A stretch of DNA of 64,000 nucleotides from Branchiostoma floridae. Its lineage: Eukaryota > Chordata > Leptocardii > Amphioxiformes > Branchiostomatidae. The translations under genes were made by a program, and so were the position numbers. Below are positions 11,114 through 36,300 of this stretch, one piece after another; the stretch's first letter is position 1, and each line of letters starts with the position of its first letter. Below the pieces are notes generated by a model. It was not told the DNA's origin and ran no database searches. It was given only the letters and a program-made list of their open reading frames with translations. The DNA is taken from the NCBI RefSeq assembly GCF_000003815.2, contig NC_049985.1, forward strand, positions 4,616,234 to 4,680,233, in the 5' to 3' direction.

Positions 11114-14100
11114 TGACAGGATAAGAAGGTTGGCTTTGCCTCATGGGGTTCAATGTTGGTCCCATAGAAAACTGCATACTAATCAGGGAGAATTATTGAG
11201 AAGTTATAATAAATAAAACAAAAATTCACAGAAAAAGTCAACATTTTACAGGTTCTTCAACCTAGACTCCCTTTGTCTGTTGCCTGACATGACATGATTT
11301 GTTGCAGGTACCTTGACTATGGGGAAGACGGGTGGAAGAAGCAAACAGCTACAGCACTGCAGCAGGTGGAGACGTGAGTGAAATACATAAGATATGATAC
11401 ATTATCTGTTTAGAGTAGACCTGGGCTGTCTCCAGCTTTAAATGTTTTTAAGTTCCACTCATTGTTATTTGATTTTCAGTTGTCATTATGAAAATGCATT
11501 TTTATCGACTTCCTGTCATGAAGTTAAGATTTTTTGGATGCACAGGCTGAAAGTCCTGTCTCTGGTTGTTGGGATGGGTCCTGGACACAATCTGTTTGCC
11601 AGAGTACCATCCTCCGTGGAGACCGCTGGCTCACTGCTTTCGCTTGCTAATCCATGGTTAGTATACTAAGCAAAAGTATAGAGACAGTGGTCACTACGGA
11701 GGATGGTACTCAGGCTAACAATCTGTGGGAGTGTTTTAAGTCAGTCACTTGATCAGATTTTCCTGAATACTGTAATACCAAGAAGAAAAGCTCTTTACTA
11801 TAGCATCAATAGTCCAGGGCTTAACTTGTGTGCTGTTTTTTATCCAGTTTCACAGATGACGTGAGGAAAAACTTTGAGGCTACGCTGGACTGGCTGCATG
11901 AACATGCCTGCTCCAGGTCCTTTGGGCTGGGTGAGTGCTAATACTGTAATTCCTGATTTTTTCAATGTACTGTTTTGTTCATGGTTTTCACGGTGATGAC
12001 TGTAACTTAAACTTATCATTACCGATAACGAATAATTCACAGCCTTTTTCTATGTGCACCTGCCGCGACAGTGAACATTTAGTTCCGAGAACAAGTTAAA
12101 TTTTCTCAGACCGTGAAAGTATGGTACCGAGAAGACAAATTGAATTACAGTATATTGAATGTTGAATAATTTAGAAAAGTAATGTATAGTGCAGTAAGTC
12201 TTGAAATGTTTATTTTTAATGTTATTTTCCCTTTTTCTGTTGCCAATGTCTGCTGTGGAATCATGTCAGAGCTAATTGACTCAGAATCTTGAAATGTTCT
12301 GACTATGTTTTATTTGTAATGTATTATTCTCCCTTTTTGTCTTTTACCACTGTCTGCTGTGAGATCATGTCAGAACGGATTGTCTTTAAGGCTCTGGGTT
12401 TGAATCCCATATATGCATGCGGTCACTCGAGTCGGGTTAGAATAAAGCCAAACGTCCTGTGTTTGAGACACCACCCCTAACAAAATATGGATTCTTCCTG
12501 GTGTTACTGGATCAAACCTTACAGTCCAGTCTTTTTAACCTACTGTACTAAAAGATATTTCATCCCATCAAAAGGTACAAAGATGCCGTGGGATGAAAAG
12601 TACCTTGTAGAGTCCCTGTCTGACTCCACCATCTACATGGCGTACTACACTGTGGCACATCTACTGCAGGGAGGGACTTTCAACGGCTCCAAACCTGGAC
12701 CTCTGGGAATCAGGTGCCAAATATTTCACAGTGCGCGTTTGCAAGCTCGCGAAGCTCTGTCATACAGTAAACACACTTTTCTATAGTGATTCTACATGTA
12801 ATATATGATTGAAGGATACACCATGCAAAACCCAATGGATACAATGTACATAGCTAATATCTGTGACCAACTGACACACAGAAACACAAGAATATCTGCC
12901 AGCCTGCTGTCTACTAAATACAGTATACTCTCTTATAAGTGATTGGTTACCATGAAACACATGAGAAACACATTAGAATCAGAGTCTCTAATTGGCGATA
13001 GGGAAACCTTTTGGATGTACAAAACTTTGAGGGAGGGACTTTAAATGGCTCCAAACCTGGACTACTGGGAATCAGGTTCCTACATTTTGCACTTAATGAA
13101 CATGTTACTTTGTCATTTTAGGTCTAAAAATTATCTGACTTTTTGTCGCCTTTCGTTTGAAATCTCTCTGAAGACTCACAGTACTAGTGTTTAAAGGTCT
13201 GTACATGCAGGTTGCAAGTTCTTGCAACATGTTTGAAAGAAGGGGAATTGTTTGTGGAGATTTTATGTTCCCAGTTTTTAAAACTAATGTAAACATTTTC
13301 CCTTGTAGGATTCTAACTAAGTTTACAGACAGAAACATTTGTACATTGTTACCTACTAGTGTAGTTAAACCATACTTGAGTACAGATTTTCTTTTACCCT
13401 TATATTATCTATAGGGCCCTGGACTATGTTTACATGTTGTAAATCATTGAGATTTATGTGTCATATAAATCCAGATTAGCCAATCATGTACTATTACTGA
13501 TGTCCTCTTTTGCATCCCAGGGCTCAGGTCTCAAATATTTTCTTGGGTTTATGTATGTAAAGATATCAATGTGTACTAGTATACATCATATTCTTGACAT
13601 CTAAGGGTTAGAAAGATAATAAAAATGTCTGTCAATAGTGTCATGGTACTTGTTTAAGAATTTGATAGTATATAACTATGTTTTGTTATTAGTTTTTTTC
13701 TGACATTCTACTTAAATTAAAGTGGTGCACCCAAAAAAGTTTCGGTGCACCCAATTTTTTAAGCTGGGTGCACCAGTGCACCTAATCCCAAAAATGAATT
13801 TCGAGCCCTGCATCCACTGGGACAGTCATGTCATCCTTTTCCATTTAAATTCACCTTCTCCAGACCAGAGCAGATGACCAGGCAAGTATGGGACTATGTG
13901 TTCTTCAAGTCGGCGCCCTTCCCAAAAACGGATATTCCCAAGGACAAGCTGAACAGGATGAAGCGAGAGTTTGAGTACTGGTACCCTGTAGACCTGAGGG
14001 TGTCGGGGAAGGACCTGGTGCCCAACCACCTGACTTACTTCCTGTACAACCACTGTGCCATCTGGCCAGACAGGTGAGCACCTATAACTAAGGAGAGATA

Positions 14101-17100
14101 GCGGTAATATGTACCAGTACAAAACCAGTGAGTTTTTCTTGTTGGACTGTGGTCCGAAAAATGATCTGTTATCATGCAGTGTCTCTTGCAGTTTAGCAAA
14201 AAGTATAACTCTGATTCGTGTACACTTAATCCCTATTTTTTTTTAATTTGCACAGCAAAGACAAATGGCCACAAGGTGTGCGAGCCAATGGGCATCTGTT
14301 GCTGAACTCTGAAAAGGTTTGTTTCTCAGTGTTCCTCCAAGAAACAGTTAGGCCATGTTGATTTGATTACATGGAAGACATCCGCACTCGCACCAAATTT
14401 CAACCAATGAGTGACTGGTAATTAACAGTTCGACCAATGAGAAAGCGGCTGCATGTCTGTCAAATCTTTGTACATGTATGTTCCATATTTCAATGTTTTT
14501 ATGGAGGTCAGCAGAGCTATGGAATCGGTCCATTGTTTTATTGGTCAATCAGCCCTTATAATTTGTCATACCCAATAATTTAAATTTTATAGATCCCAAC
14601 TGTTTCCTAAGCTTTTTTGCTGTTTCAAATTTTGCAAAAGCTAAAAAGAAATATGTCTCCTTTAATTTCCAGATGTCCAAGTCTACTGGGAACTTCCTAA
14701 CACTGAGTGGTGCCATTGAGAAGTTTTCTGCAGATGGTAATTTTAACTAGTCTTTGATTCAAGTAGTACTTTTTAGATATTAAACGTGTACCATGATATA
14801 TTATTGTGTACTATGTATGTGTGTCTGTCTTTCTGTCTGTATGAAGACATACATGGAGAATGCCAACCCAACTTTGTGGAGAGGATGGTGACTGTTTTTG
14901 AAACGCATGACAGACATAGATGTATTTCTAAATTGTGTTGTTCTCAAACAGAAAAATATCGTTGATGCGAGTGTGTGTGTGGCATTCTGTAGAAATGTGG
15001 CTGGCATTTGCAGATGTAGGTGACACTGGAGAGAATGGTGGATCGGTTATTGAAACGTCTGACAGGCATAGATTCTGAATGGAGTAGTTCTGTATCTCAA
15101 CGATGAATGTACATGTGCTGTATGTACATGTAGGCATGCGGCTGGAATTGACGGCCGCAGGGGACACAGTAGAGGATGCAAACTTTGCGGAGAGGATGAA
15201 TGTTATTGAAACGGCTGAAAGACATAGATTGTGTTTCTGAATTGTGATTCAGGTGTGTGTGTGATGTTCTGAAGGAATCCAGCTGGCTTTGGCTGACGCA
15301 GGGGACACCATGGAGGATGCCAACTTTGTGGAGAAATGCCGATATTATTGAAACAACTGACAGACAGAGATCATTATATTTCTGAATTGTGTGTTGTTCT
15401 CAAACATAAAAATATTGTTGATGCAAGTGTGTGTGTGGCATTCTGTAGGAATGTGGCTGGCATTTGCATCTGATGTAGGTGGAGAGAATGGTGGATGTTA
15501 TTGAAATGACTGACAGACATAGATTCTGAATTGTGTACTTCTGTATCTCAACGATGAATGTACATGTCTGTAGGAATGCGGCTGGCGTTGGCGGACGCAG
15601 GGGACACCGTGGAGGATGCCAACTTTGTGGAGAGGATGGCGGATGCGGGGATCCTGCGCCTGTACACATGGCTGGAGTGGGTGAAGGAGATGCTGGCCAC
15701 GAAGGACACTCTGAGGGGGGGACCCCCCACAAACTGGTCAGACAGGGCCTTCGTCAGGTTTGTTTGTTTTACATAACCCATAAATTACTTTTAGACTTTA
15801 CACACCAGTTTTGTACTCTAGGTACAATGTATAAGCTTAGTTCACATGAGACCAAATGTTAAGGTTTGATCCACTTACACCAGGAAGGACCCCTAAAGAT
15901 TGTTGCATATACATGTACTAGTAGATTTTATACTCACGATGCTCTGGGTCAATTTATGTTTAAGCATATGGCTGAAGCTGTGGTCCTGGGTCTTCATCGT
16001 GGGTCACTGGATATGGCTGAAGCTGTGGCCCTGGGTCTTCATCGTGGGTCACTGCGTATGGCTGAAGCTGTGGCCCTGGGTCTTCATCGTGGGTCACTGC
16101 GTATGGCTGAAGCTGTGGCCCAGGGTCTTCATCGTGGGTCACTGCATATGGCTGTAGCTGTGGCCCTGGGTCTTCATCGTGGGTCACTGCATATGGCTGA
16201 AGCTGTGGCCCTGGGTCTTCATCGTGGGTCACTGCATGTGGCTGAAGCTGTGGCCCTGGGTCTTCATCGTGGGTCACTGCATATGGCTGAAGCTGTGGCC
16301 CTGGGTCTTCATCCTGAGTCATAGCATATGGCTGAAGCTGTGGCCCTGGGTCTTTATAGGTCACTGAGTATGGCTGAAGCTGTGGCCCTTGGTCTTCATC
16401 GTGGGTCACTGCATATGGCTGAAGCTGTGGCCCTGGGTCTTCATCCTGAGTCATAGCATATGGCTGAAGCTGTGGCCCTGGGTCTTCATCGTGGGTCACT
16501 GCATATGGCTGAAGCTGTGGCCCTGGGTCTTCATCGTGGGTCACTGCATATGGCTGAAGCTGTGGCCCTGGGTCTTCATCGTGGGTCACTGCATATGGCT
16601 GAAGCTGTGGCCCTGGGTCTTCATCGTGGGTTACTGCATATGGCTGTAGCTGTGGCCCTTGGTCTTCATCGTGGGTCACTGCGTATGGCTGAAGCTGTGG
16701 CCCAGGGTCTTCATCGTGGGTCACTGCATATGGCTGAAGCTGTGGCCCTGGGTCTTCATTGATGATAGTCTTTGCGTACGGTGCAAGCTTGCCGTTTTTC
16801 CCTTTTCCTGACACATCAACGTATGCCACGGCGTATGGCTCAATGTCATTGTCGTGTTGATCTGATGTCTGTATGTGAGCAAAGGAGGTCGTTGCGTACG
16901 GTGCAAGCTTGCCGTTTTTCCCTTTTCCTGATACATCGACGTATGCCACAGCATACGGCTGAATGTCATCATTGTCGTGTTGATCTGATGTCTGGATGTG
17001 AGCAAAGGAAGTCGTTGCATACGGTGCAAGCTTGCCGTTTTTCCCTTTTCCTGACACATCAACGTATGCCACGGCGTACGGCTGAATGTCATCATTGTCC

Positions 17101-20100
17101 TCTGTCGCCTGGTCCTGAATAGGATTTGGTCGTCTCCCTGGAGACGAGTCTCTGTCCGATGCTTGCAGACCCGCCGAGTTTGAGTACACGACAGCGTACG
17201 GCTCAATCTTATCGCTTCCGTCTGTTTCGGCAGGGGCATCGTGACGGGCCAAACGGCGGTTGTAGAAATAGACGATTCCCACTGATGCTGACACAAGTAG
17301 GAGGGGCACAACAACAGCTGCAATGATGGCATTGACGTGGCGTCTGTCATCGTCCTCAGTGATGTTTGGGCTATCGGGAAGATTGACAATGTCAATCCCT
17401 GTGGCATACATTGAGCTTGTTGTGTCGTAAGTGTACTCCTTCTCTGTGGGAATGGTGTCGTCGCACAGACTCGAGTTGAAGGTGTGAGAACCTGTGGTGA
17501 TGGACGCGTCCGTGACGGTATGACAGACATCCTTCCTCATGGTGACCAGGAGAGTCCCACGCAGGTCAGCAGGCAATGCGCACCTCAGGAACATCGGAGC
17601 AAAAATCTGCTCCAGGTCTGAGAGGTTGCAGATGAACCACGTGAGATTCCCGTCACATTCCAGCTTGTTGCTCTCAACATCGAGACGCGAGATCCGGGTC
17701 TGACGCAGGCGCAGGACTCGGCTGTCGATTGTGGTGATGTCGTTTCTATGCAGTGTTACAGCCTCCAGCGCTGGCGGCGGAAGCAGTGCATCGACGGGCA
17801 CAGCAGGCAGGCGGTTCATGGCTAACCCCAACCTGTTGAGGTTAGGCAGGCCACGGAATGCATGCTGAGATATGACGGAAATGGCATTCCTGTCAAGGCT
17901 CAAGGTAACCACCATCTCAAGCCCGAGAAACGTATCAGGTTCTGAATGAAGAAAGAAAAAAAAGCCAGTGTTAATGGTGAATGATGATGAAATGATGACA
18001 ACAAAGTTCAAGGAATGAGAATGTCAAGGAAACCAGTCGAACCATTTTATAGCCAGTTGCCCAGTGGGAAACGCCAGCCAAAAGTTTAGGCTGCCCATGA
18101 ACAGTTCAGGTATTTAGCCACAAGTAAAAGGGCTTTACATTATTTTAAGGAGTTTAAAGACTGTTCATGGTAACAAAATGCACCCACTGAAAAACAATGA
18201 ATTGTGCATGTACAACAAAAATGGCTTGACATGCACAGGGCTTTACAGCCCTGAAAGTGCCAGAGGGTCTTTTTGTTCCTAGATTCTGCCTTGTTTAATG
18301 GTATGAACTGAAATAACAGGAGTTGTTGACAGAAAAATGTGTTGTTGTTTTTAAACACCAATACTTGATGGTATGACTGTGAAAAGTAACAAGTATATCA
18401 AAATGCCCCTCATGAAGAAATCTCACTTTCCAGATTGGCACTTTTACTTGCCCATGACAATCAGGCTAGTGGACCAATCCTGCAGAATTTCATCACTAAG
18501 TCTTCATCAATAATATGTGCATGCAATCTCTCGGTTTGGCATTGCAAATGAAGATCATCTAGGATGCAATAATGAAATAAAAAAATCAAATAGAAACAAT
18601 AATGAAGTAAGATGAAATCATGAAGTAAGAAATCACTAATTTGAGCCTACCAAGGCTTGAGATACGGTTGTCAGCAAGGCTGAGGGTGTTGACCAATCGG
18701 AGACCGCGGAAAGCCCCTGGCTGCACCGCGGAAACGTTTGAGTTGTAGATGTGAAGGACCTGAACTCGCGGGCTGTTTGGGAAAGCCCACTCCTGAATCG
18801 TAGGAGAACGGAGGTGCTTGATGAAGATTGATCGCGTGGCTGGGTGGAAGTCGGTTGGTATCACTTCAAGACACGCGGGGAAGCTATATTTTCCTCCATA
18901 CCCAATCCAGCTACAGGGGGACCCCGCCCAATTTTTATCGGGACAGCGGCAGATGACTTCCTGTGTAACATGCCATATGTGGGACCAACAGCTGCCTGGG
19001 CACCGAAGAGCTTTCTTCACAGGAAGCGCTGATGACGGGACATGCAACAGAACACTCGAAGCCAAGAGCAACATGACAAGCAGTGACTTGTTTCCCGCCA
19101 TCTTGGTCACTCCTGACACATAGGCTAATCTATGATGGCTGGTTGTGAGAATTATACATTTAATTTGTCCCAGGCCTCAATATTTATTTTATATACATAA
19201 ACAGGGCTCGATATACTTTTTTTCTGCATTCTTGCACTGGTGCAACTTGCAAGTAACATTGAAAATTACCTGCACCAGACAAATTTTACCTGCACCACTC
19301 TGGACTTAAGAATTATGAATCATAATAAAATTGTTCAGGAACTATGCATTGCTATTTTTTCTTTCATACTTTATCAATGCAGCTAATGACAATCTATACA
19401 CAGTCATCATAGGACATTTATGTATAAAACCCAGTACATGGACCAGTGCAGGTTAGGTGCAGGTAGACACCAGAAATACCTGCACAGCTCCAATTTTATC
19501 TGCACTAACCTGTATATACCCAGTACATGACCAGTGCAGGTTAGGTGCAGGTAGACACCAGAAATACCTGCACAGCTCCAATTTTATCTGCACTAACCTG
19601 CATATGCAGGTGGTATTTCGAGCCCTGATGTATGATATGAATGTTGTTTCTGTATTATTGCTCTCAACTACCCAGTAGTTTTGAATAAATATGAAGATAC
19701 GGCAAAGATTAGTTGAATTTAATCATACATAATTTGTCAACCTCCGGTTCTGTCAGACTAATTTTCTCAGTAGCTTTGTATATGGAGAGGATATCAAGGT
19801 CTTTCTGCAGATCAACAATTCATAACACTCACTTTTCGTCCAAACATAAAGAAAACCCCAGGCAGTGTTTAATCAAATGTAAATAGAAGTTTACACACAT
19901 ATACAGCGAGACAGCATGCTAAAACTAGAGAATGAAAGGAAATATACTGGTGTAAGTGGATCTTTTCGTTGGACGGTAAGGATGGAAACGTTCAAAACAT
20001 CACTTTACGACACCCATCGTGGTTTGGGACTTTTTGAGCATCTGTAACAGTTGCTGATATTGAAATAATAGTGCACAACAAGGCTAAGACTAGCATTAAG

Positions 20101-23100
20101 AATTCACTCTAAATAATTTGCCTTGGGATGAAATCTTCAATTTCTTGTTAGAAATGTACGAGTGGGAGTATGTATTTTGAGTCCTTGCCTTGTTTTGCTA
20201 AAAATAGTGTTATCGGTTATTAACGACCAATACTCTCTTATAAGTGTGATGAAATCTTTAATGTGCTCGGGGTGTGGCTCTCCCCGAATACGGGACCTCC
20301 ATTTAACGTCATATCCGAGGGACGGCCCCAAGCAAAGCTTTCACCTGAGTGAAGTTCTCTTTCCTTAATTCTTTTCAGCTCAATGAACAAAGGCATCCTG
20401 GAAACTGCTGCCAGGTATGACAGGATGATGTTCAAGGAGGCTGTGAAAACTGGCTTCTATGAGTTTCAGGTATGTCTTAAATTTTCATTTAGCTAATTCA
20501 TGTACTAGAGAAGTACAAGAAAATATTACAACCATAATGCTATACACATTGCGTCTAAATTTTGTGTAGTTGCCATGGTGATAAGTATAAAGACAACAAT
20601 GTCATGCATTACTTAATAATACTGTAAATGTTTTTAAGTTTGCGGGGATTTAATTTCGCGGTAGCGGGAAAAAGGACTTTTCGCGATGGATTTAAGTTCA
20701 CGGTAACACCATAGACTGCAATAGAATATAATTATAGAAAAATGTTCGCGGTGGTTTCAAATTCGCGGTGAAGTGGTCACCGCGAAAACCGCGAACATTA
20801 ATCCACCGCAAACATTTCTGCATTTACAGTATTAAGTATAAACACAATTTCATGCAGTACTTGATACATAAGTAAGAACACAACAATGTCATGCAGTACT
20901 TGATGATATGTTCATGTTTTGATATATTTTGCAATCAAAGGTTTGTGTAAATTCATAAGGAATTGAAGAGAATTTGTATTACCAAGGAGCTTTTTAGCCT
21001 GTGTTTACACAAGCTCTCGCCGGCTGGGCTTAGTGAACCCCTCCCCCCGAGGGCGGCGGCAATCGTAGGGCCGGCCGCTAGGGGCGCGATTTTAGTCAGG
21101 CTAGAAGCTTTTATATCTGATATAAAAGCTCCTTGGTATTACACAGGTATATGATGTGGGGTAACATACTATAAGGATTTATCATTCTATCAAGTTCTGC
21201 TCTCTCTTTGTTGTATAGTCTTCGTTCTACTACAAAAATTTTTTTTTGTTGACACTCAAAGTTTTATCTTTCCCCCAGGCTGCCCTGAGTAAGTACAAGG
21301 AGATAGCGACAGAAGGCATGCACCGTGAGCTGGTGTTCAGGTTTATCGAGGTGCAGACCCTGGTGCTGGCACCCGTCCGTATATCTGAGATATCTTTCAA
21401 TGTGATTGAATTATTGACACTAAGTTTATATTTCCACCAGGCTGCGCTGAGTAAGTACAAGGAGATAGCTACAGAAGGCATGCACCGTGAGCTGGTGTTC
21501 AGGTTTATCGAGGTGCAGACCCTGGTGCTGGCACCCGTCCGTATATCTGAGATATCTTTCAATGTGATTGAATTATTGACACTAAGTTTATATTTCCACC
21601 AGGCTGCGCTGAGTAAGTACAAGGAGATAGCTACAGAAGGCATGCACCGAGAGCTGGTGTTCAGGTTTATCGAGGTGCAGACCCTGGTGCTGGCTCCCGT
21701 CTGTCCGCACCTCTGTGAGCACATCTGGGGGCTGCTGGGAAAGGTAGGGACTCTTTTTATTCAAGAAAAGTACAATGGTACAGATACAAATAAACACAAA
21801 TGAACATGCAAAAACAATAAGCTACATATATTATTAAAAAGTACAATGGTACAGATACAAATAAACACAAATAAACGTGCAAGAACAATAAGGTACATAA
21901 AAAAACAGAGACAGGTTACCATAGTTCAGTGTAATGAACAAGATAATGTCAGGAAATGAAAATAGCCATTTATAATAGTTGATATTGAGTATGAAGTACT
22001 TCAGTCAAACAGTGTTCCCCACTTACCCCAATACTTCTTCAACTTCCCTCTATGAGTTGCAATACAAAATGCTGAATACTGAAGGGAGTGTATGGTCAAT
22101 CTTGAAATGTTCATGAGGGGTTTTATCTGGGGGCTGCTGGGAAAGGTAGGGCGCAAAATGTTGATGAATACTGTAGGGGGTGTACAGTCAACCTTGAAAT
22201 GTTCACTGTTTTATTTTTGCACTTATTGTGGTAACGTTTTTGTAGTTATTATGTCTGGAAGGAGAGAGTCAAAGTCAAAGTAGAACTGGTCCGGGCATCT
22301 CGCCCATGATGATGATGATGATGTGGTGACTTTTCTATCATGAAATCATGACACCACAGTTCCGCAATTGGCATTTGATCAATGCTAGACTAGTGTAAAG
22401 AAGTTGAGACAGAAGACTAGTGCTACATGTAGAAAGGTCCCAGAAAGTTGGCAGGGATGCAAAATGTTGATGAATACTGAAGGGAGCAGGGTTCTAGCCA
22501 GCGTCCATCCTTCTGTCCTGGGGATGGACAAATATTTTGCCCATTCTGTCCTCTATGATGGACAAAAATCGACATGTTAAGATATTAAAACAGATGCCAT
22601 TAATTAAACCAGGTAGAGTCTACATTCAAGCAAAATTTCTAACTCAAAATGCAGGAAATAGCATTTCAGAGGGACTAGATTTCAAAATTTTCCACGTGTA
22701 GCATACCCCCCGACCCCCCGAGGATCGTCGCGCCTTTGGCACTCAACAGGATTTCCAAATCAAAATCCAGGGGATGGACAAAAAATTCAGGCTGGCTAGA
22801 ACACTGGAAGGGAGTGTATGGCTAATCTTTGAATATTCACGTTTTTTTTTGCAGTTACTGTGGTGACTTTGAATAATTGTAAAAATCATGACCCGACAGT
22901 TCCGCAATGGGCATTTGATCAATGCTAGACTAGTGCAACAAAGTTCAGACAAAAGTGCTACATGTAGAAATGTCCCAGAAAGATGGCAGGAAAAATATTT
23001 CGCCCAAGTCCACAGTTTTTCCCAGTGATAGGCCAGGATAAGGGCGCCTCATTGTTATTTCTCAGATTGTTATTGCCAGAAGAGGATTCCGAAGATGAAG

Positions 23101-26100
23101 CAAAAAATTACCAAAAGTTGTTTTACAAACTTGAAGGTATGAGGTCTCTGGACTCTTGTTTCCTTTTTGTATGATGAAAAGTATCAGAAGGTCTGAGATT
23201 CATTATTTTCCAGTGGTTTACTCATTAAAATGTTGAATTATTTCAACTTATACTTTGATCCGCCTAATGTTACCTTATCTACATGTTGGAACTTCTCACT
23301 CTCCTCCCTCTCTTTCACCACAATCGGCAATGATGTAATGGTATTTCAGCCTTGTTCTGAGATTAGTCAGATGTCACTGATCAGAATTTTTTTGCAAACC
23401 ACAGAAGGAGTCCATCATGCATGCAGCCTGGCCCCAGGCAGGGCCTGTAGATGAGGTGATGAACGAGGCGCTCGACTACCTCATGGACGTCGCTCACGAC
23501 TTACGCATCCGCCTCAAGAACTTCGCTGAACCAAAGGGCAAGGTATGTACATATACAATGTTAGGTCGCTTTTTTCAAGGGAAAATCTGAAGAATGGATG
23601 GAATTGTATTACTCTCTTTGTATAGTTTTACAGACTAATCTTTTATATTTTACTGAAAATAATGCCAGAAAAATCTTTATCGTCTTTGACCTTCTGGTTG
23701 AAAGAACTTGCAAATTGCAAATTGACATTGCTTTTCTCTTTTTATGTTATAATACCATATTTTTATAAGTTAGGGCAAGAATATTCTTATCATAACTTAT
23801 CAAAAAATGTATGTAATATGTGTGAAAATGTCATTGAACTTTGAAATACTAAATAGTAATTTATAATAAGATTAATGATGACATATTGGGAGTACATTTT
23901 TCAAATCTGTAGCGTCATGCAAGAATGAAAATGGTATTTCTTAATTACTCGCCAAGCAGATGTTAGCCTCTGGCTGTTTTCTGAAGCTTATCAGGCCAAA
24001 CGAGACATAAAGAAAACAGTACAACATAGACAGCCAGTAAAAACGCCTAGAAAAAGGAGAAAAAAACCGTCGGAGCCTAACCTCTGCTTGCAGAGTATGT
24101 CTTAATGTCTTTTAAAAGTGCATGGTAAATGAATATACATGTAATGGTTCAACACCTAAAACATAAACTGTTCTTCTCTTGTCACCAACAGAAGGGTGCC
24201 AGCCAGCCGCCAGCCCAGCGCCCCACCCACATGACCATCTGGGTCGCTAAGACCTTCCCCACCTGGCAACACTTGACCCTCATGACCCTCAGGAAGATGT
24301 ATGAGGTCAGTTCAAAGTTCAAAGTTCAGTCACACAAGGATTTATGTCTGCAATCTGATACTTGTGAAAATTAATCTCCAACCAGATCCATGGTGGCGTA
24401 ATGTATCAAACTTACCGTTTGACTCCCTTAGCCGGCTATACTTCTTGGCCAGCTTTGATACTATCTTATGGCACTGTAGGATCTGCTTGGAGATTAGTGA
24501 AAATATCACATGCCAATGTCACACTATTTACCACCTTTGGGAAAATTTATCGACTGCCAAAATGTAGCCAAATTTCAAGCATATCTTTCACATGAAAATC
24601 TACCCTTCAACATTTGAGGGGACTCAGTGACATGTGACCATTGGTCAACCTCACAAATTGTGTGGTGATTAAAAGGACACTTCCAGCCATGTTGTTGCCA
24701 GAAGGTCCTTTAGTGCATGCTGTGTGCCCTTGGCTTCAAAATACGTTTAGATGTACTGTTTGATTTACATTTATCTTATTCCTGCTCTGAACTTAATGTT
24801 GAGAATGCAGATGTGTTTTATTGCTTTTGGTCAAATTTCATTGGTTATCTATTATGCCATGTTGTGGATTGAAGCAGCAAATAGACAGAACTTGCACAGC
24901 TTCAGTCTTAAATTCATTTCTTTTACTAGACACGTAACGTTATGTGAACTTTGAAAAAAATGATGGTACCACCAAGGCATGGACTTTCTTTGACATTTTC
25001 GCAGGAAAACAACAACAGCTTTCCGGAGAACAAGGACATTGCCAAGACCCTTGGTGGGTTGGAAGAGTTGAAGAAGTACATGAAGAAGAAGGTCATGCCC
25101 TTCGTTGCCATGGTCAAGGTCAGTACATTTAATCCCCACGAAAATCGTTGATTTTACATTTATTATGTATGTTTGTGACAGGACTTTAGCTAAATTCTCT
25201 CCTGCACCAGATAGTCCATACATTTGAATACCCCTTGGGCCACACAACTCTGTGCAATCACTACAGCAGGGGGCTAGCCCACTAGTAGGGGTGTGTGTTC
25301 AAGTACCATTCTATTGCCCAAATGTTGGGTGCTAAGCAGAGAAAGCAGAATGATATTTAAAGTGTTCGGAATGACTCGACCGGGGATCAAACTCACGACC
25401 TACAAAATGCAACGAAGGCAAACACTCTACATACTTAGCCTTTGCATTGGTGTAAAATAATTTTAGCTCACATTGTAATCCATAAGGAATGTTTGCACCT
25501 TTCGTATTTCTGACTATTTTACTTTTTTGCCAAAGACCAATGTAGAGAAGCAGGGGACCAGAGCCATGGACGTGACACTGCCATTTGATGAGAAGGCTGT
25601 CCTAGAGGAGAACATGAAGTACCTTCTCAACACACTAGAGGTGAGGATAGAGTTTATCAAGTGCAGTGTAGCTAGTATTACATTGTGTATAAGGCCATGT
25701 TGATTTGAATATATGGATGACATCCTCCGGGAACTCCAAAACTGATGCGAGCGAGCGAATAAAAAAAAAGTTTGGCCAAAAAAAAAAAGTTGCCTTCAGT
25801 ATGAAATCAAAGTGGCCAGGAAGGTTGAACATAGGACTAAACACACATAGTATGATATACCAACAGTTAGGTGTAGGGACCAGTACATCAAAGGGGTGCA
25901 AAACATTTTTTTCTTATTGGACCAATCCGAAAAAAACAGACCTGAAAAAAAAATAGAGGAACAGGTTTCGCCAATTACAAAATGGACACACTATGTCGGC
26001 AGCCTTTTGGGGTCTAACGGGGGGGGGGGGGGGNNNNNNNNNNNNNNNNNNNNNNNNNNNNNNNNNNNNNNNNNNNNNNNNNNNNNNNNNNNNNNNNNNN

Positions 26101-28275
26101 NNNNNNNNNNNNNNNNNNNNNNNNNNNNNNNNNAAAAGTATTTTGAGCCCTGATGTACTAATGAATGTTTGTCCTGCCCCCTTGTGCCCCCAGCTGGACT
26201 ACATCCAGGTGAAGTTCTCCACAGAGGCAGAGGAGAAGGTGAAGGAGGAGTGCTGTCCTGGGAAACCTCTCAGCAACCTCTGGGTGGAGGTCAGTTACAA
26301 GAAGTCTTACTATGATTACATACCTTGTACCTTATACCTTGGTCCTTGACCCATGCCAGTATTCCTGGGTTGTGGGAGCACTGCATGGTAGCACTGGTTA
26401 TCAGGTCCCTCCATCCTAATCGGTCCTGCGTCAGTAAGAAGGATGCTGCAAAGCTCTTTCTTGTCCATTCCTTGATGTTGTCAGTCCTTTTTTTTCTGCC
26501 TACCCCTTTACCTGGTTCCATTCACAGTTACTTGAAGGACAACTGTGGACAGTCCATTTGACCTCATTGTATATCCTCACCACTTTGATTTTCTTCTCTT
26601 CACTACTGTTAGGAGTCTTTCATATATAGTAGCAGCGTTGTTTTATGTTGTTTTATGATTACATACAGAGTACACGATTAGACAATTGTGGCTTTTGTCT
26701 GTTGTAATGGTTAGTTGGTCCTGGTTTCAACACTCGCCATGCCCTGACATGGTGCCCTTGGATTTCACACCATATACCCACCATGACTGTGGAGTGATGC
26801 CAACTGAGCCTCTGGGCTAATCTGTCACTATTCATATTATTGATAATTTCTGTTTTCGTAAGAATACTACACAATGGGGGTGAGTACCAGTACAGAAAAT
26901 TCAGGTATTCGACGTCCCCGTTCACATTATGTAAACAACACTAACTTCCTCTGTTTTTGACCAAGTTTGCTGTAGAAACATATACAGTAGTAAAATTACT
27001 AGTATTAACTCAACTCTACCCTACTACACAACCATACAATGTAATAATTGCATCTGGTTTGCCTCTTAAACAATACATGACATGACATTTCTACATGTCG
27101 TATGGAAATCATCCTTGCCATGTGTGTATGTCCTGCTTCAGCCTGGGGTGGAGGTGAGGTTTGTGAACCCCCAGCCGTGCAGCGGCCATTTCAGCTTAAA
27201 TCTGCCCGTCCGTCAGGGCGACACCACGGACAAGGTGCTGGGGCGGATCGTGCGCATGGACAGATCAATCAAAGGTGAGGCTTTGTCAGGCCTGTCTCCA
27301 GGCCCCAGCTGCCCTTCTCAGGAGGAAGGTAGATGAAAACAGCAGTGAAAAAAACTCTTGTCCCTATTTCTTTTTTTGATTTTGTAATACCCCAATTAGA
27401 AATGGGCTTGTCTCCAGGACCTGGATATTTGTTTGGACCGAAAAAATGTAATGTTGTCCATATTTTACCTAAAAATGACATAGAATGGCCATAGAATGAC
27501 ATAAGATAGGAATGAAAATGACAGAAAAATGGTGAATATGTATTTTAGAACCTAAAAATTACAGAATCTTAACAACAAAAGTTAACAACATGGACTTCCA
27601 AACAGTAAGTGGGATAGGATGAAGGAGAATTCTTATTACCCAACCAGTAAGTTCTTACATTGCTTACGTTTTGACATCTCTCAGACACCTTCGTCAGAGC
27701 TTTTAACTTGAGTTCTGCTTCTCATCGCTATATGTAGCCGATGTAGGTGGCGTAAGCAACGTAAGTACTTACTGGTTGGGTAATAAGAGTTCTCCTTCAT
27801 CCTATACTCTACCAACCTGATGAAACTATTTTCGGAAATAAGTGGGGTGAAAAAATCAAAGCTGGAGACATGTCATACAGGATAACAGCAAGCAAACCAA
27901 CTTGTTGACAACTTGTCGCTGGGGTTTGAGCAATGTCATCAAAGTACATTTTAATTTTTGAGACGAAGGAAAGACAATCGAATCGTTACAACATTCATGT
28001 TTATTTTAGCAGTCATGACTTGACATATTTACATGATTGTGTACTCTTTTATGACAGATACCACTCAAATCAAGCTGATGCGCTACGATGACCCCAATGT
28101 GGGGCCCAGATCCATCCCCGTTTTCAACCAACCAGAGAAGGGGAAGACTGCCATCCCAGAGTCCTCTGTCTTCACTGTCAACCTGGAAACCCAAAATGTC
28201 TCCGTGTCTGAAAACGGGAAGTCTATAGACGTGGGGAGAACTCTGGTGTACCTTGTACAAGGAGCAGATTTCTAG
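3037..28275 (+). CDS. LARS1: Leucyl-tRNA synthetase, cytosolic (LARS1), 30 homologous exons
   Basis: Class Ia synthetase that charges tRNA-Leu in the cytosol and hydrolyses mischarged products; in animals it is part of the multisynthetase complex. Exons: 3037-3161, 3545-3629, 3967-4047, 4410-4541, 4953-5114, 5759-5871, 6363-6426, 6571-6638, 7382-7607, 8427-8591, 8904-8957, 9335-9475, 10145-10222, 10718-10803, 11308-11373, 11848-11930, 12575-12713, 13864-14073, 14256-14316, 14673-14736, 15574-15757, 20379-20469, 21603-21743, 23405-23542, 24192-24305, 25005-25118, 25536-25640, 26194-26289, 27142-27274, 28058-28275. All have AG/GT boundaries and compatible phases, and sum to 3537 nt (1178 codons plus stop), close to the roughly 1176 residues of the vertebrate enzyme. 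The HIGH-type motif (HLGH), the TLRPET editing motif and KMSKS are intact, so the gene appears functional. Confidence 0.97.
3680..3840 (+). repeat. Possible tRNA-derived SINE fragment
   Basis: Within a LARS1 intron, TATCTCAACTGGTTGCAGAC is followed about 45 bases later by CCTGGTTCAAATCCTGGG, a spacing and sequence resembling A and B boxes of a tRNA gene. It does not fold as a complete tRNA by eye and is followed by a tail like that seen in tRNA-derived SINEs (TACTCGTCTTAAAGAAAGG). Confidence 0.4.
4170..4318. repeat. Degenerate palindrome array, array 3
   Basis: Four or so diverged units of the same CAGCACTGG...CCAGTGCTG inverted repeat, with mismatches in the arms (for example CAGCACTGTAAAACCATTGCTG), in the LARS1 intron before the exon at 4410. 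It appears to be an older copy of arrays 1 and 2. Confidence 0.75.
7166..7226 (+). pseudogene. Decayed partial copy of LARS1 exon at 7382
   Basis: Sixty-one bases match the first 61 bases of the exon at 7382 with about ten substitutions ([21 protein letters not shown] when read in the same frame), preceded by a similar intron tail and an intact TCCAG acceptor. It then diverges abruptly, has no matching donor and lies 216 bp upstream of the true exon. It would break the protein if spliced in. Confidence 0.8.
7382..9475 (+). CDS. LARS1: LARS1 exons 10-13: CP1 editing domain
   Basis: Four exons (7382-7607, 8427-8591, 8904-8957, 9335-9475) encode most of the CP1 insertion that hydrolyses misacylated tRNA-Leu. 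The threonine-rich editing motif reads [16 protein letters not shown]. The later motif [19 protein letters not shown] contains the conserved editing-site aspartate region. Both match the family closely, so editing should be intact. A decayed partial copy of the first exon lies 216 bp upstream, at 7166. Confidence 0.95.
10145..14736 (+). CDS. LARS1: LARS1 exons 14-21: second catalytic half and KMSKS loop
   Basis: Eight exons return from the editing domain to the synthetic active site. Conserved blocks include [20 protein letters not shown] (10718), the [20 protein letters not shown] block (12575) and [20 protein letters not shown] (13864). KMSKS is split by an intron: K ends the exon at 14316 and [11 protein letters not shown] opens the exon at 14673. 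The exon at 12575 has a decayed copy of its 3' end about 360 bp downstream. Confidence 0.95.
11016..11110. repeat. (GT)n microsatellite
   Basis: Long GT dinucleotide run in a LARS1 intron, interrupted near the middle by GCGTGTATG. Its complement gives a spurious His-Thr open frame. Confidence 0.97.
11595..11717. mobile_element. Short hAT-like MITE
   Basis: The ends are inverted (TTTGCCAGAGTACCATCC and GGATGGTACTCAGGCTA) and the element is flanked on both sides by ACAATCTG, an 8-bp target duplication typical of hAT transposons. It is 123 bp long, has no coding capacity and lies in a LARS1 intron. A related element is at 47952. Confidence 0.75.
11944..12150. mobile_element. Mariner-like MITE, CTGTAATTC family
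   Basis: Starts CTGTAATTC and ends GAATTACAG, flanked by TA on both sides, as in Tc1/mariner elements. About 207 bp. A second copy with roughly 85% similarity by eye is at 38897. No coding capacity. Confidence 0.8.
13031..13075 (+). pseudogene. Decayed copy of 3' end of LARS1 exon 12575-12713
   Basis: GGGAGGGACTTTAAATGGCT and on through GGGAATCAG|GT repeats the last 45 or so bases of the exon ending at 12713 together with its donor and some following intron. It lies about 360 bp downstream. It lacks the front of the exon, so it cannot substitute for it. Confidence 0.75.
14850..15522 (+). pseudogene. Five decayed tandem copies of start of LARS1 exon 15574
   Basis: Segments at about 14850-14920, 14992-15070, 15132-15227, 15274-15368 and 15447-15522 each resemble the intron tail plus first 60-90 bases of the exon at 15574. 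Their common pattern is GGAATG..GCTGGC..TTTG..GATG, then AACTTTGTGGAGAGGATG, then ATTGAAACG.CTGACAGACATAG. All carry indels that destroy the frame. Spacing is irregular (about 125-175 bp). Only the sixth, most downstream copy continues into the full exon. Confidence 0.8.
15574..21743 (+). CDS. LARS1: LARS1 exons 22-24: anticodon-binding domain
   Basis: Three exons: 15574-15757 ([20 protein letters not shown] and on), 20379-20469, and 21603-21743 ([20 protein letters not shown] then [14 protein letters not shown]). The 4.6-kb intron between the first two holds a complete gene on the other strand. The first exon is preceded by five decayed copies of its start. The third is the last and only full member of a three-copy tandem series (21279, 21441, 21603), because only this copy continues into the CPHLCEHIW block needed by the family. 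Confidence 0.93.
15960..19101 (-). CDS. LRR transmembrane protein with tyrosine-repeat tail, nested in LARS1 intron
   Basis: Two coding exons, 18651-19101 and 15960-17941, joined in phase 1 through a GTAGGC donor and a TTCATTCAG acceptor, give 810 residues ending in TAA. Residues 1-26 form a signal peptide ([19 protein letters not shown]). A Cys-rich N-terminal cap ([15 protein letters not shown]) and several leucine-rich repeats ([41 protein letters not shown]) follow, then a C-terminal cap near 242-290, a TM helix at about 355-377 with NRR stop-transfer residues, and a 430-residue cytoplasmic tail. The tail has three 44-residue units with [12 protein letters not shown] and LAPYA, then 18 [15 protein letters not shown] repeats. 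It is probably a cell-surface receptor with many phosphorylatable tyrosines; ligand and signalling are unknown. I recognise the class, not a named orthologue. It lies entirely inside a LARS1 intron, antisense. Confidence 0.9.
15963..16758 (-). repeat. 45-bp coding minisatellite (18 copies)
   Basis: Eighteen tandem units encode [15 protein letters not shown] with few changes (one unit lacks one residue; variants YAMTQ, YSVTY, PHAVTH, YPVTH). All but one keep the central tyrosine. DNA identity between units is very high, so copy number is probably variable between individuals. Confidence 0.95.
16770..17100 (-). repeat. Three 120-135-bp coding repeats ([13 protein letters not shown])
   Basis: Three tandem units in the LRR protein tail read [18 protein letters not shown] then LAPYA, linked by a [12 protein letters not shown] spacer. 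They are nearly identical in DNA. Each unit has several tyrosines and they precede the 45-bp repeats in the protein. Confidence 0.9.
19202..19627. mobile_element. Element with CAGGGCTCGA terminal inverted repeats
   Basis: Begins CAGGGCTCGATATAC and ends GTATTTCGAGCCCTG. It contains a tandem internal duplication of about 77 bp around GGTTAGGTGCAGGTAGACAC. The ends resemble hAT termini, but I could not match an 8-bp target duplication. It lies upstream of the nested LRR gene start. Related ends are seen at about 13800, 26140, 33815 and 43340. Confidence 0.6.
20622..20829. mobile_element. Mariner-like MITE, CTGTAAATG family
   Basis: Ends CTGTAAATG and CATTTACAG flanked by TA. The interior has GCGGTGG and CCACCGC blocks that pair, giving a large hairpin (TTCGCGGT with ACCGCGAA). 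A near-identical copy is at 36917, at the MFSD8 exon 9 donor. Confidence 0.85.
20975..21145. mobile_element. MITE with TATTACCAAGGAGCTTTT inverted ends
   Basis: The 5' end TATTACCAAGGAGCTTTT is mirrored at the 3' end by AAAAGCTCCTTGGTATTA. The core is unusually GC-rich (GGGCCGGCCGCTAGGGGCGC). It lies in the LARS1 intron before the triplicated exon. No coding capacity. Confidence 0.7.
21279..21743 (+). repeat. LARS1: Tandem triplication of a LARS1 exon start (162-bp unit)
   Basis: The first 98-100 bases of the exon occur at 21279, 21441 and 21603, each preceded by the same intron tail (TTGACACTAAGTTTATATTTCC and CAG; diverged before copy 1). The period is exactly 162 bp. Copies differ at only a few bases. 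Copies 1 and 2 stop after CCCGTC and continue into GTATATCTGAGATATC, the start of the next unit's intron tail. Copy 3 continues into the full exon. Because 162 is a multiple of 3 and there is no stop, the three units form one open frame. Confidence 0.93.
22125..22151 (+). repeat. 27-bp exact copy of a LARS1 exon 3' end plus donor
   Basis: ATCTGGGGGCTGCTGGGAAA followed by GGTAGGG repeats 21723-21749 exactly (end of the exon at 21603 and its donor). It lies about 400 bp downstream, in a region of further local repeats (GAATACTGAAGGGAGTGTATGG). Confidence 0.8.
22487..22806. mobile_element. hAT-type MITE, GAAGGGAG target duplication
   Basis: Starts CAGGGTTCTAGCCAGC; the inverted 3' end reads CAGTGTTCTAGCCAGC. 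Both sides carry the same 8 bp, GAAGGGAG. 320 bp, no coding capacity. The 8-bp duplication and CAG-start ends are diagnostic of hAT. Confidence 0.9.
23405..28275 (+). CDS. LARS1: LARS1 exons 25-31: C-terminal region and stop
   Basis: Seven exons (23405-23542 through 28058-28275) encode the metazoan-type C-terminal extension used in tRNA-Leu recognition. Recognisable blocks are [18 protein letters not shown] (25005), [13 protein letters not shown] (26194) and [11 protein letters not shown] (27142). The last exon ends [14 protein letters not shown] and a TAG at 28273-28275. A 100-base assembly gap lies in the intron before 26194, outside any exon. Confidence 0.94.
23946..24097. mobile_element. 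Short element with TACTCNCCAAGCAGANGTTAG ends
   Basis: The 5' end TACTCGCCAAGCAGATGTTA is mirrored by TAACCTCTGCTTGCAGAGTA at the 3' end. The same end sequence recurs at about 9870, 50770, 58935, 59025, 59130, 61740 and 61845, marking a dispersed family. Confidence 0.6.
25210..25455 (-). repeat. tRNA-derived SINE
   Basis: On the minus strand GGCTAAGTATGTAGAGTGTT resembles an A box and GTGAGTTTGATCCCCGGTCG a B box about 35 bases later. A non-tRNA body (CTGCTTAGCACCCAACATTT) follows. This arrangement fits a tRNA-derived SINE rather than a functional tRNA. It lies in a LARS1 intron. Confidence 0.6.
26034..26133. other. Assembly gap (100 N)
   Basis: Exactly 100 undetermined bases, which is usually a placeholder of unknown true size. 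The left edge is a G homopolymer and the right edge is the end of a TIR element (TATTTTGAGCCCTG), so the gap probably hides a repeat inside a LARS1 intron. No exon is lost. Confidence 0.99.
27614..27805. mobile_element. Foldback element with about 55-bp inverted arms
   Basis: ATAGGATGAAGGAGAATTCT then TTATTACCCAACCAGTAAGT runs inward and is mirrored from 27751 to 27805 with a few mismatches. The loop is about 80 bp. Located in the last LARS1 intron. Confidence 0.8.
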
Positions 28276-30340: not shown

Positions 30341-33300
30341 GTAAGCCACCCCATCAAGGGGGTTTTAACATCTACTAGTATTTGCCTTCATTGTGGCAGG
30401 CAAGCCACCAGACAGACACTAGTCCAATATATGTAGACACGTTTTTAAGTAAAAGCTGCTGTTAGAAATTGTATTTCACACAATTGATTTTTAATAGCAC
30501 CTGAGATATGGAAATGGACACCCAGTAATCATTCTGTCTGGAGCATACTGATTTAAACTCTTTAAATGAGAAAGTAACATCAAAGTTTTTATTGCTCTTT
30601 CGGGATTCGAACTTCCAATGCCACCTGCTAACAACTAACCACTGATCCAAATCTTTTTAAATTACTGAAATATTTCACAAAACGATTTTGTTTATGCAAA
30701 AGCCATGGCGATTATATCTTTTCTGTCATCATATAACGTTAGACACTTGTTTAATCAAGGAGGTTAGTCACAGAGAATTGTCTATAACCTCCTTTGTTTT
30801 GAAAGTTTAGACACTATTTCGCTAATCAGTCCTACATGCTAGGTTCTTGACCTTTGACCGTTCAAAAAACCCCTCTGCTCAGAAAACGCGCAACCTAAAA
30901 ATCTTCTTTTCAGTATCGCTATACATTTGGCTTGATTTGCTTGAATCGTAAATTAAAGGAGACGCGAAGGATACACCGCAAAATTTGGATATATGTCCTC
31001 CGAAATGAAAATACACTTCATCCAAAAATCGCTAGGCGGCTCTAATAGTGGGTCAAAGGTCGACTAGCAGACGAAGTAGGGTAACGCACAAAATATGGCA
31101 CCTAGAAGAAGTAAGAATCGAGGCGATCCTGACGAGCGCTCGAAGCTGTTGCAGAGCGTCCCACCGATTGAAAGGTAAGGATAACAAGGTCGAGGGGACG
31201 AGGCACAACATGAACAGGAGCTATGCGTGGTGCCTCTTTCTCTCAGTTCCTACTTGGCCGAACGGCCAACGTGATAACGTTACGTAATGGTCAGAAATGC
31301 AGCTTCTTAAGGGGACAAACGGTTGTATTTTTGAGGACCCTTGAACGTTTCACTTTAAAGGTACAGGAAAAGAATACAGATGATACCAGTCGTCAGTGAT
31401 TTTATCAAATGGTCAGTCAGATCTCAGCACTGTAACTTTGTTATAGTCGTATCTGACAGTCAGACCATTTGTTGGTAAAACTCCTGAAGATCACTCAGCT
31501 CACTTTTTTCTTGAGCTGACAATATCAAAAGTTCTACTTGTCTTGTTGCTCGTTATGCGGACCCACTGTAATTAACGTCATGTCTTACGTATTCAAGTTT
31601 TCTTCTCTTCACATAAGTCAGGTGTTTTTAGCTGTTATTTCATTCTACCGGTTTGGAAGATCAAAGTCCAGTTTACATAATTTGTACATTAATCACCTTA
31701 ACTGCTGTGAGTTTTCAGCATATGACCTAAAAATGTCAAACCTTCAACCTCGAAAATTCAGTTAAATTATAAAGTTTGTAAATGGTAAAACACATCAGAA
31801 GTATGGAAATCATAATCTTCTTTACTCCAGAGTGTTATTACGTTATTAAGATAATTATTACCTTCGGCTTTGCCAAGACTTTGGGTAACGTTAAAATTAA
31901 CGTTAGCGTTTGTATGTTTGTGTGTAGAAGACCAGCATATATCAAGAATGCCTGAATGGAATTTGTAATGATATTCAGTATGTGGGTATGTCTTGATAAG
32001 ACCTGAAAACGGTTGGATTTTGGGCCCCCTATGGGCTTGTTATGTTATTGCTGCAGAATTTCCTGTTTTGATATCTCTAGTTCTACGCATACTTTGGTCA
32101 TGCTTTTTGAGTGGTCTTGGATCCTAATGGTTGTTTGGTAGCTTCAGTGATGCTTGACATAATTTTATGCTTTGTGCTATGCTATTGTTTGTTTTGTCTG
32201 TTTGTTTATTGATTCACACAACAAAAAATCAGCTGTTGGGAGAACTCCTCCCTGATCTTCACCAGATCTGATATTTGGTGTACATTTGCTTGTAATACAA
32301 GTTGTATTAAATAGTTACTATTGGCTCTGAGACTAAACGGATTGTGTGACATGTGCGACAGCGCCTGCGAAGCTGGTATGTTATGCCAAAGGGTGGTTAT
32401 ACCAGCTTTATACTATAGACTGATACAGATACGGAAAATGATACAGATTGTAAAAATTCTCTCCTTCTCTCCAGTTCCAACAGTATCCAGTGGTGGGAGG
32501 ATGACAAGGATAACCGCAGGCGCTGGTGGTCCATACGGATCATGTACCTCACCATGTTCCTCAGCAGCATGGGTAAGGACAACTTTACTCTAACTTGTAG
32601 AAAAACTTGCTAACACATTACTCTTATTCAAGTCTATTTTGAGTCAACACTGATCAGAAGTAATGCTGCAGCTGCACCAATTCAACAATGGGCTGCTACC
32701 GTATTGGTACAGTTTTGTATTTCTCTTCTAGATTTAAAAAAAAGTGTTTTAGTTTGTTTTGTATAAAAATAGAAAGAACTGAGAGATGTAGATGTAAAGG
32801 GAATTTAAAGAATTGATTAAATGAATAAATCAAGGGACATCATTAGAGTCTACTTAAGATTTTTAAACTGATACTTTTAATATGGCACATTTAGACCAAA
32901 TGTCAGAGTCACTAGTACTATCAGTCCATTCTAGACAGGGTACTGTAGCTGCCTCAATCTTTTTGCTTACTAATGCCACTTTGTTTTCCTGCAGGATTTT
33001 CGATTGTTGTGTCTTCAGTGTGGCCTTTCCTGAGAAAGGTAGGTTTGAACATCCTTGCCCAGAAGCATGTACTGAGTGTTGTCATATATCACAGACAGCT
33101 TGAAATGAATGAACATTCTGTGACATCATAATCATATAATGATCAATGTGACTGCTCTGTTAAGTCTTTGACTAAGTCTTTGACTGCTCTGTTAAGTCTT
33201 TGTTAAGTCTTTAAGTCAGAAACATCATGATCATGAGACAAACTGGGGGGGATTATGCAGTAGAAGAGGCAGGAAAGTATCCACATTCCCTATCCCACAG

Positions 33301-36300
33301 GTGGACCACAGTGCAGACAAGTCATTCCTCAGCTGGGTTGTGGCTACCTACAGATACATGAGTGCCGCAGCACCATTTGTTGTGGGAAGGACTTAAATTT
33401 TTTTTCTCCGTATGCCTCCCAGGTAGACCACAGTGCAGACGAGTCGTTCCTTGGCTGGGTGGTGGCTGCCTACAGTCTGGGCCAGCTGGTGGCCTCGCCC
33501 GTGTTCGGCGGCTGGGCCAACCTGCGCGACCGGACCAAGGAGCCCCTCCTGGTGTCCATCGTCATCAATGTGGCGGCCAACACCATGTACAGCTACACCC
33601 ACGCCTTCCCCCAGCCCAGGGGCGTCTACATGCTGGTGGCCAGGGCACTGGTCGGCTTCGGGGCAGGTTGGTTGGAGCAGATATGCACTTGTTGGTTACT
33701 GCAAATCATTTTGTTTTTGCGAGATTTTGCACTATGAGGGGGGTTTTGCAGTGTACAATTTGGTGCTACTGCAAACAGTTCCGTAATCTTCAGTGATTGT
33801 TTTCTTCCCTAAGCCAGTGCTCGAAATACATGTACTTTTTTTCAGCCAGGTTCTCAGGTGGCAACCTGAGTCAGAAGCCATTTTGTGCCATCAAATATTT
33901 CAGGTTGCCCCACCTACAAGTTATTACTTTCTTCAAAATAACTACTTATCGATGATCTGTTCTTCTAGTTTCTACCTTATCAAGAAATAAATACAAAAAG
34001 GTTATGCACATAGGTGGGGAGAAAAGCGCACTGTGGTACCTGGGTTTGAAATTAATGTGGTTGCATTTGCAAGTGTGCAAGTGGGTATTTTGAGCACTTA
34101 CTAAGCATAGAACTATATCATGCACTGCAGGAAATGTCGCAGTAGTGCGTTCCTACGCGGCGGCAGCCACCACCCTGAGCGAGCGCACGTCCACCATGGC
34201 CACCATGAGCGCCTTCCAGGCCATCGGCTTCATTTTGGGGCCAGGTAATACAGCAAAACATTTTTCTCACAAATGTGTGATTATTTCCGTCTTAAGACCT
34301 TCCATACAGTGTGTACTGGTAGATGTTTCCATGCATCATACCTGCCATAAATTGTATTATTAGGTGGTTACATAGACATGAAAGTTTGTCAGAATTTTGT
34401 GTGTGATTTTCGTTTACTAAGTTTTTTCTTAAGTTTTTTATATACATTAGAATAGAGATTTTTTTTTATGTGTCTCTTCCATGGATAGAGTGCCGTATAC
34501 TTTCAGCAGATTGCTGTTTCTGTGGCAATATTTTTCAATTTGAGGCTCATATATACATGTACACAAGGAAGGGTGTAACTCAACCATTGAAAGGGCCAAA
34601 AGTGTAATTGAGTCCAAAACAGAATTCGATTTTACAAAATTGCACATTGCGTAGAAAACCATACTGTTATTGAAAAGTATGGCCAAAATGTGACTCTCCT
34701 TAAACACGTGCACGCATAACCTGTTGAAACCAACTAATCACTATCTCACTGACTAACTACACTACACCCCCACCCCACACAAAGTGTTACAGACGGCCTT
34801 CGTACCGCTGGGTGAGAACGGAATTGAGTGGAAGGCCATCCAGCTGTCCATCAACATGTACACAGGACCCGGCTTCCTGTCAGCTATCCTGGGCATCATC
34901 AACATCCTGCTACTCATCTTTGTATTTAAGGAATGTAAGGTGGCTGACACGGCTGGGCTGGTGGTCAACAGTCAGGGTAAGACTGGTATTAGGTCTTTTT
35001 TGGTGGCATCAAATCGGATATAATTTGGCAATGCCTCATAGCTGGAGGCATTTTTGTAATCTGCTTGTAATGAAAATCATCTAACAGTATGCCATAACCT
35101 GTACTTTGTGTTGGTAAGTATAATCTGTGCATTAAGTAGCTGATTAGTCATGACATTGCTAACACACTTTGCATGACTTGTATTTGTAATTCTAAATTTA
35201 TATCAATTTGTCATAGATTACAAATCTTGGCATGGATTTGAATCTGCTTGTACTAATATAAGCACTATTTGATGGAGGGATGCCAAATATCAGGCACTCA
35301 AGCAACTGGATATGATTTTGGAAACAGTCAGACATTCCAATGAGATCTCTTCAGTGTCACTGACAAAAGGTAGTGAATTCTACCTGAAACATCTGACTGT
35401 TTCCAAAATCATCTCCAGTTGCTTTAGTAATTGCTATTTGCTGTATCTTATTACCTGGATGTCTCACCTTCATCAACGTTAATGGAGGGATGTTTAACAC
35501 TTTCTAGGATGTTGAATTCACCTTGTTTCTCCTTTCCAACAGAGATAGAAAAGTCGGAAGAAGAGGGGACAGTGGACTACTTTGCAGTCATAGCAACCAA
35601 CATCCTGTTCTTTGTCATCTTGTTTTCCTTTGCCATTTTTGAAACGTAAGTTTTAAAAGTGAATAAAGAACTGAAGTTAACATGGTGCTGAACATATTGT
35701 TATTGTTAAAAAGATAACTATTTTTTTTTACATATTTTCTTATTTCTAAGAAACTAATTATACACAGATTTGTAACATAGCAAAGACAAGCTAAAGTTTA
35801 TAAGCTTATGAGAAGGATTTGCCTGCCAGAAGTAGGAAATATGATTGTAAAGAATATGATTTTCTTCGAAGGATGGCTGGAGGGGTAGATGTATAGATAG
35901 TTGGATGGACAGATGGATGAACAGCATGGCAAATTTCTCATCCTTCAAATTAGTAAAATTAATTAAGACTCACTTTGGCTAAACATTGGACCTTATTCAT
36001 GCTTTCACTGTCCTTATGCTGATATCATTTCAATGCCAGTAAATGCAAGTATTACACCTTGGCAAAGCGTTGTCCTCTGCAATTCCATTCAGTATTGCTT
36101 TTATACCTAGTACCTATAGTACCTACTTAGTCCCTTGACCTCCGGGTCGTTGGGTGACAAGGTAGGCATGAAGATGTAGAGCTGTCTCCAGGCTTGTTAT
36201 TCTCTTGCAATGGTCATCCTTATATACTCTGATACCATGTTTCAGAATCACGACCCCCCTGACTATAGTGATGTATGCGTGGACCCAGAGCCAGGCTGTG

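Follow-up and report, generated by a model that had tools for sequence, protein, structure and literature searches.

In a 64,000-nucleotide stretch of the Branchiostoma floridae genome (NCBI RefSeq assembly GCF_000003815.2, contig NC_049985.1, positions 4,616,234 to 4,680,233 of the forward strand; hereafter the window, in which all positions are counted), the gene LARS1, which encodes cytosolic leucyl-tRNA synthetase, carries the start of one of its anticodon-domain exons three times in tandem, with the full exon as the third copy. We are confident that this array is a 'mirage', i.e., a tandem duplication of minisatellite type which by chance extends over an intron/exon border, and its copies 1 and 2 are most likely intronic. 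According to the passages of PMC3087553 used here, mirages are found in amphioxus genes and consist of tandem repeats that straddle an intron/exon border. In LARS1, the tandem unit spans such a border, and the authentic full exon stands at the end of the array.

LARS1 was located using the human LARS1 protein as a bait. It spans positions 3049-28257, and our model comprises 30 exons, whose borders were drawn from the sequence and are approximate. The gene is intron-rich in this genome and close to the animal enzyme. Three joined exons matched PDB chains named 'Leucine--tRNA ligase, cytoplasmic' (E 2.7e-54), which we take to be human.

Anatomy and history of the array

The sequence that opens the exon, GCTGC(C/G)CTGAGTAAG..., is present three times on the forward strand, at 21279, 21441 and 21603 (read in 20200-23700), with a period of exactly 162. 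The 162-bp repeat unit consists of a 63-nt intron tail followed by the initial 99 nt of exon sequence, and the TRF program delimits the array at 21249-21701 (period 162, 2.8 copies, 96% matches, score 837). Copy 1 (21279-21377, 33 codons) shows four differences from copy 3, all synonymous. It is followed by an intron tail that is open in frame (21378-21440), by copy 2 (21441-21539) and by a second tail (21540-21602) carrying the acceptor of the real exon. The third copy runs on into the full 141-nt exon (21603-21743, 47 codons, phase 0), which precedes a gtaggg donor and codes for part of the anticodon-binding domain (Pfam Anticodon_1, E 9.5e-8, residues 104-150 of the frame read through the array). 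An earlier sequence-only reading had assigned the gene, the domain, the period and the identity of the third copy as the full exon, and its coordinates and arithmetic hold. It had also attached an intron tail to every unit, which is correct for copies 2 and 3. Upstream of copy 1 (21246-21278), approximately 30 nt of tail are recognizable, with 27 of 30 aligned bases identical and three gap positions, and there is no similarity further up; this tail is thus different or diverged.

We searched each of the 30 exons with 40-nt flanks against the whole window, with reversed exons as controls. The two exon-start copies gave E values of 9.6e-67 and 1.9e-50, as compared with 2.3e-4 for the best of the 30 reversed-exon controls, and their similarity is therefore far above chance.

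The three 99-nt exon starts differ at four sites, of which exon positions 6 and 30 distinguish copy 1 and positions 48 and 93 distinguish copy 3. At positions 6, 30, 48 and 93, copy 1 reads C, G, T, A, copy 2 reads G, T, T, A, and copy 3 reads G, T, A, T; between the inner intron tails there are 0 differences out of 63. From this pattern, copy 2 is a chimaera, with the left part of copy 3 and the right part of copy 1. Identity at a lag of 162 is perfect across 179 nt (21309-21487), in agreement with the earlier proposal that the last event was recent. The term 'triplication' used in that proposal is right as to the number of copies, but a history in two steps, with an older duplication and then a perfect gain of one unit, describes the array better. 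The first step would have left copy 1 beside the real exon, and the chimeric copy 2 would have been added afterwards, when unequal crossover or slippage took place between those two.

Taken on its own, the pattern may reflect either one recent unit gain of this kind in an older two-copy array or the misjoining of two haplotypes. Signs of turnover are present, since the inner part is homogenised and the outer border divergent; a haplotype misjoin could mimic them in part. By analogy with the amphioxus globin array BflGb6, the divergent tail upstream of copy 1 would fit an outer border exempt from homogenisation.

By eye, a short element whose ends are inverted relative to each other (TACCAAGGAGCTTTT... 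/ ...AAAAGCTCCTTGGTA) was seen at 20978-21146, in the intron shortly before the array. A second element, with TACTGTAAATG-like ends, was also seen by eye upstream of the array, at approximately 20617-20832.

Splicing, reading frame and alternative explanations

The most likely splicing pattern would run from the exon end at 20469 directly to 21603, the start of the real exon, with copies 1 and 2 discarded with the intron. The duplication would presumably be neutral. We scored potential splice sites with an acceptor matrix built from 28 acceptors of the gene, none of them from the array exon, and a donor matrix built from 28 donors; these matrices are small and the scores rough. The acceptors of copy 2 and of the real exon score 8.48 each, above 18 of the 28. 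The strongest donor in the region is that of the real exon (8.29, scored with itself in the matrix), and each copy has two weaker ones (4.8 and 4.3). Copies 1 and 2 would thus supply competing acceptors for one good donor, and on sequence alone any of the acceptors might prevail. The motif AGGT occurs twice per copy, and the in-frame occurrence scores 4.8 as a donor and 1.94 as an acceptor.

Use of copy 1 or 2 as a cassette exon was considered and rejected, with no positive-scoring donor at 100 nt; donors at 72 nt, in frame, are found in every copy. The sequence-only reading had envisaged a frame-shifting 100-nt exon, but the donor that it requires, TCC/GTATAT, is absent from the positive-scoring sites when scored against the gene's own donors.

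The same reading stated that the region can be read straight through, and 21279-21743 is indeed a stop-free frame of 465 nt, whose translation gives two 54-residue units before the 47 residues of the exon (54+54+47). The significance it gave to this openness is not supported by comparison with the rest of the gene. With 63-nt intron tails open in 30 of 84 tail-frames (28 LARS1 acceptors in three frames) and a chance of 1/3 that the period is a multiple of three, a unit that is both open and in frame is a coincidence of about 12%, i.e., approximately 1 in 8, and the second inner tail duplicates the first. Five older exon-start copies, associated with two other exons, have 1, 9, 7, 5 and 3 in-frame stops before the real exon. 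Four of them are out of step with their exon (lags of 581, 440, 299 and 125), and the fifth lag, 216, is a multiple of three.

Among the alternatives to a mirage, an assembly artefact, by which haplotypes of different unit number were joined or units mis-stacked, is unlikely but deserves consideration, and it would be compatible with a real mirage of two units. The clean left/right chimerism of copy 2 and the exact 179-nt repeat at lag 162 are consistent with it, as are the presence in the window of an assembly gap, a run of 100 N at 26034-26133 in a LARS1 intron, and the case of lancelet PGBD5, for which the sections of PMC3902484 used here give repeat counts of 2 and 3 in one genomic sequence but 7 and 6 in a second. 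However, four sites distinguish copy 1 from copy 3 and their upstream tails differ as well, so that two or more copies probably exist, and more decayed copies precede other exons of LARS1.

Another possibility is that part or all of the LARS1 messages are read through the array, with entry at the copy-1 acceptor and exonic sequence up to 21743, which would insert 108 residues in the anticodon-binding domain. We regard it as improbable. Even more doubtful is the specific proposal that a fraction of the messages enter at this acceptor and are translated through, with individuals differing in the number of 54-residue modules; if it were true, unit-number variants would yield an essential tRNA synthetase with differing module counts in its anticodon domain.

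Several observations nevertheless argue for read-through and against an intronic nature of copies 1 and 2. The copy-1 acceptor is the strongest of the three and, at 12.95, exceeds 27 of the 28 others as well as the 8.48 of the real exon, which could favour its use. The exon parts of copies 1 and 3 differ at 4 of 99 positions, as against 3 of 30 plus three gap positions in the flanking tail and no similarity beyond. All four exon differences are synonymous, with a P of about 0.004 if all sites are equally free. The 465-nt open frame points the same way, as does the low quality of the donors at the exon/tail junctions of copies 1 and 2, with no positive score at 100 nt and 0.97 at 96 nt.

Openness by coincidence at the frequency given above reduces the weight of the frame, and the synonymous lean also occurs in the five stop-bearing copies, for which read-through into the exon is impossible and which have a shared history (24 differences over 71 synonymous sites and 23 over 216 non-synonymous sites; the most decayed copy, at 14868, is excluded from these codon counts). 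Recalculation gave a P of 0.025 for the 4/4 synonymous pattern at an expected share of ~0.40 (constrained exon, free copy), and 0.068 at the 24/47 share, and selection on the read-through frame is therefore not decided by this pattern. A constrained exon diverging from free copies, or converting them, could produce such a lean. Weak constraint on copy 1 would be compatible with so few sites, but nothing in the sequence requires copies 1 and 2 to be translated. The cytoplasmic LARS chains of the PDB, of which four were matched, show no gap at the repeat position in either of the two alignments shown. Finally, the similar BflGb6 array appears to be regularly spliced, as suggested by RT-PCR (PMC3087553, in the passages used).

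The birth of an intron, in which copy 1 would be exonic up to the AG/GT at 21350/21351 and spliced to the AG/GT at 21674/21675, leaving the protein unchanged and creating a new 324-nt intron, is highly improbable: the strong copy-1 acceptor, the GAG/GTGCAG donor at the in-frame 72 nt (4.8, above 6 of 28 real donors) and the acceptor at 21675 (1.94, above 2 of 28 leave-one-out acceptor scores) would permit it, a like fate has been proposed for mirages in the globin study (PMC3087553), and a review, in the part used, calls tandem genomic duplication the sole route of intron gain shown in vivo (PMC3443670), but both sites are weak and occur in the real exon too.

Other border copies in LARS1 and in the window

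Copies of exon borders were found for 4 of the 30 LARS1 exons (E09, E17, E21 and E23), with E values from 1.3e-14 to 9.6e-67 for the best copy of each, and they show differing degrees of decay. E23 is the exon of the main array, and in addition to its start copies it has a 27-nt exact copy of its 3' end with the donor site in the next intron (22125-22151, forward strand, E 1.2e-8). The other three sets are on the forward strand as well. Upstream of E09, whose real exon begins at approximately 7382, an older copy of the exon start is found at 7164-7226, with intron tail upstream of it (92 nt, 82.6%, E 4.5e-22). Before E21 (exon at ~15574), the exon start is partially repeated up to five times in a decayed array at 14868-15497, with E values of 4e-28, 4e-22, 7e-6, 2.6e-5 and 0.001. 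The weakest of these, at 15442 (E 0.001), is no better than the control, and it is upheld by the codon comparison and by the window-wide duplication pairs. In the case of E17 (~12575), a copy of the 3' part including the border lies downstream of the exon, at 13030-13080 (51 nt, 90.2%, E 1.3e-14). We did not count a 33-nt match at 38892 (E 2.5e-9) to the intron flank of the 11848 exon, as it falls outside that exon.

The idea that exon borders are specially targeted was considered and rejected. Eleven local duplication clusters in the gene span, merged by eye from 48 window-wide pairs, touch exons in 4 cases, as compared with 5.2 expected by random placement (P(>=4) 0.87), and therefore no special targeting is needed. 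In this comparison, the exons of a gene nested on the minus strand were not counted, and the 27-nt copy at 22125 was too short for the list. The rate of border duplication is thus about that expected of local duplication alone.

The nested sequence, at 15963-19176 on the minus strand inside a LARS1 intron, comprises two open frames with leucine-rich-repeat matches, which probably constitute one gene. Its tail harbours approximately 17.8 copies of a 45-bp (15-residue) repeat and 2.7 copies of a 123-bp repeat, both bearing tyrosines in QPYAV-like motifs. Upstream of LARS1, clusters of 31-bp palindrome-like repeats (CAGCACTGG...CCAGTGCTG) are found at 529-995 and 2183-2476.

Elsewhere in the window, an apparent exon start is duplicated together with its acceptor in a neighbouring gene that matches the Major Facilitator Superfamily. 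The copy, at 33298-33353, lies 122 bp upstream of 33420-33475 (87.5% over 56 nt); this period is not a multiple of three. Three exact 49-bp repeats at 52776-52923, each with an AAAG/GTATGC donor-like site, possibly represent another exon-border repeat. A retroelement-like open frame at 48466-49281 has a weak match, below the Pfam cut-off (E 0.003), to a reverse-transcriptase zinc-binding domain.

Relation to known arrays

In the sections of PMC3087553 and PMC3902484 used for this comparison, mirages are reported in globin, Adh, TnC and PGBD5 genes, apparently with no disturbance of splicing. On its anatomy, the LARS1 array would be of the same kind, in another gene. It was not named in the titles and abstract openings retrieved by our literature search, a check that most full texts lie outside; one retrieved paper cites the enzyme as an example in a different context.

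A close likeness is seen with BflGb6, whose 150-160-bp units, made of an intron end and an exon start, number 6 and 3 in two haplotypes (PMC3087553). The two arrays are alike in anatomy and unit size, and concerted evolution is described within the BflGb6 cluster with the border excluded. The comparison concerns anatomy, the reading frame of the BflGb6 units being outside it; it sets a different gene, with two haplotypes and RT-PCR, against one haplotype known from its DNA here. Lancelet PGBD5 resembles LARS1 in that a unit, there of 108 bp, is present three times in tandem at the border of an exon and has a length divisible by three. It differs in that the repeats overlap with exon 4 and adjoin the intron 4 donor site, and the units are imperfect (PMC3902484). 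The Adh mirages (Nucleic Acids Res 2002, cited in PMC3087553) are likewise tandem repeats across exon/intron borders, and the Adh data similarly suggest regular splicing according to PMC3087553; Adh and TnC are so described in PMC3902484. Unlike the LARS1 array, the Adh mirages have units of 10-72 bp, with somatic instability reported (via PMC3087553). Tandem copies containing AGGT are shared with intron gain by tandem genomic duplication as presented in the part of PMC3443670 used, whereas the AGGT sites of LARS1 are candidate splice sites defined by their scores.

Automatic gene prediction may misread such arrays as extra protein, as in lancelet PGBD5, where it took the repeats for 57 extra residues that the authors excluded (PMC3902484, in the passages used). 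With exon-border duplications of several degrees of decay in one gene, LARS1 offers a natural series for the study of splicing with competing acceptors, and this series also serves the question of whether exon-border repeats seed new introns.
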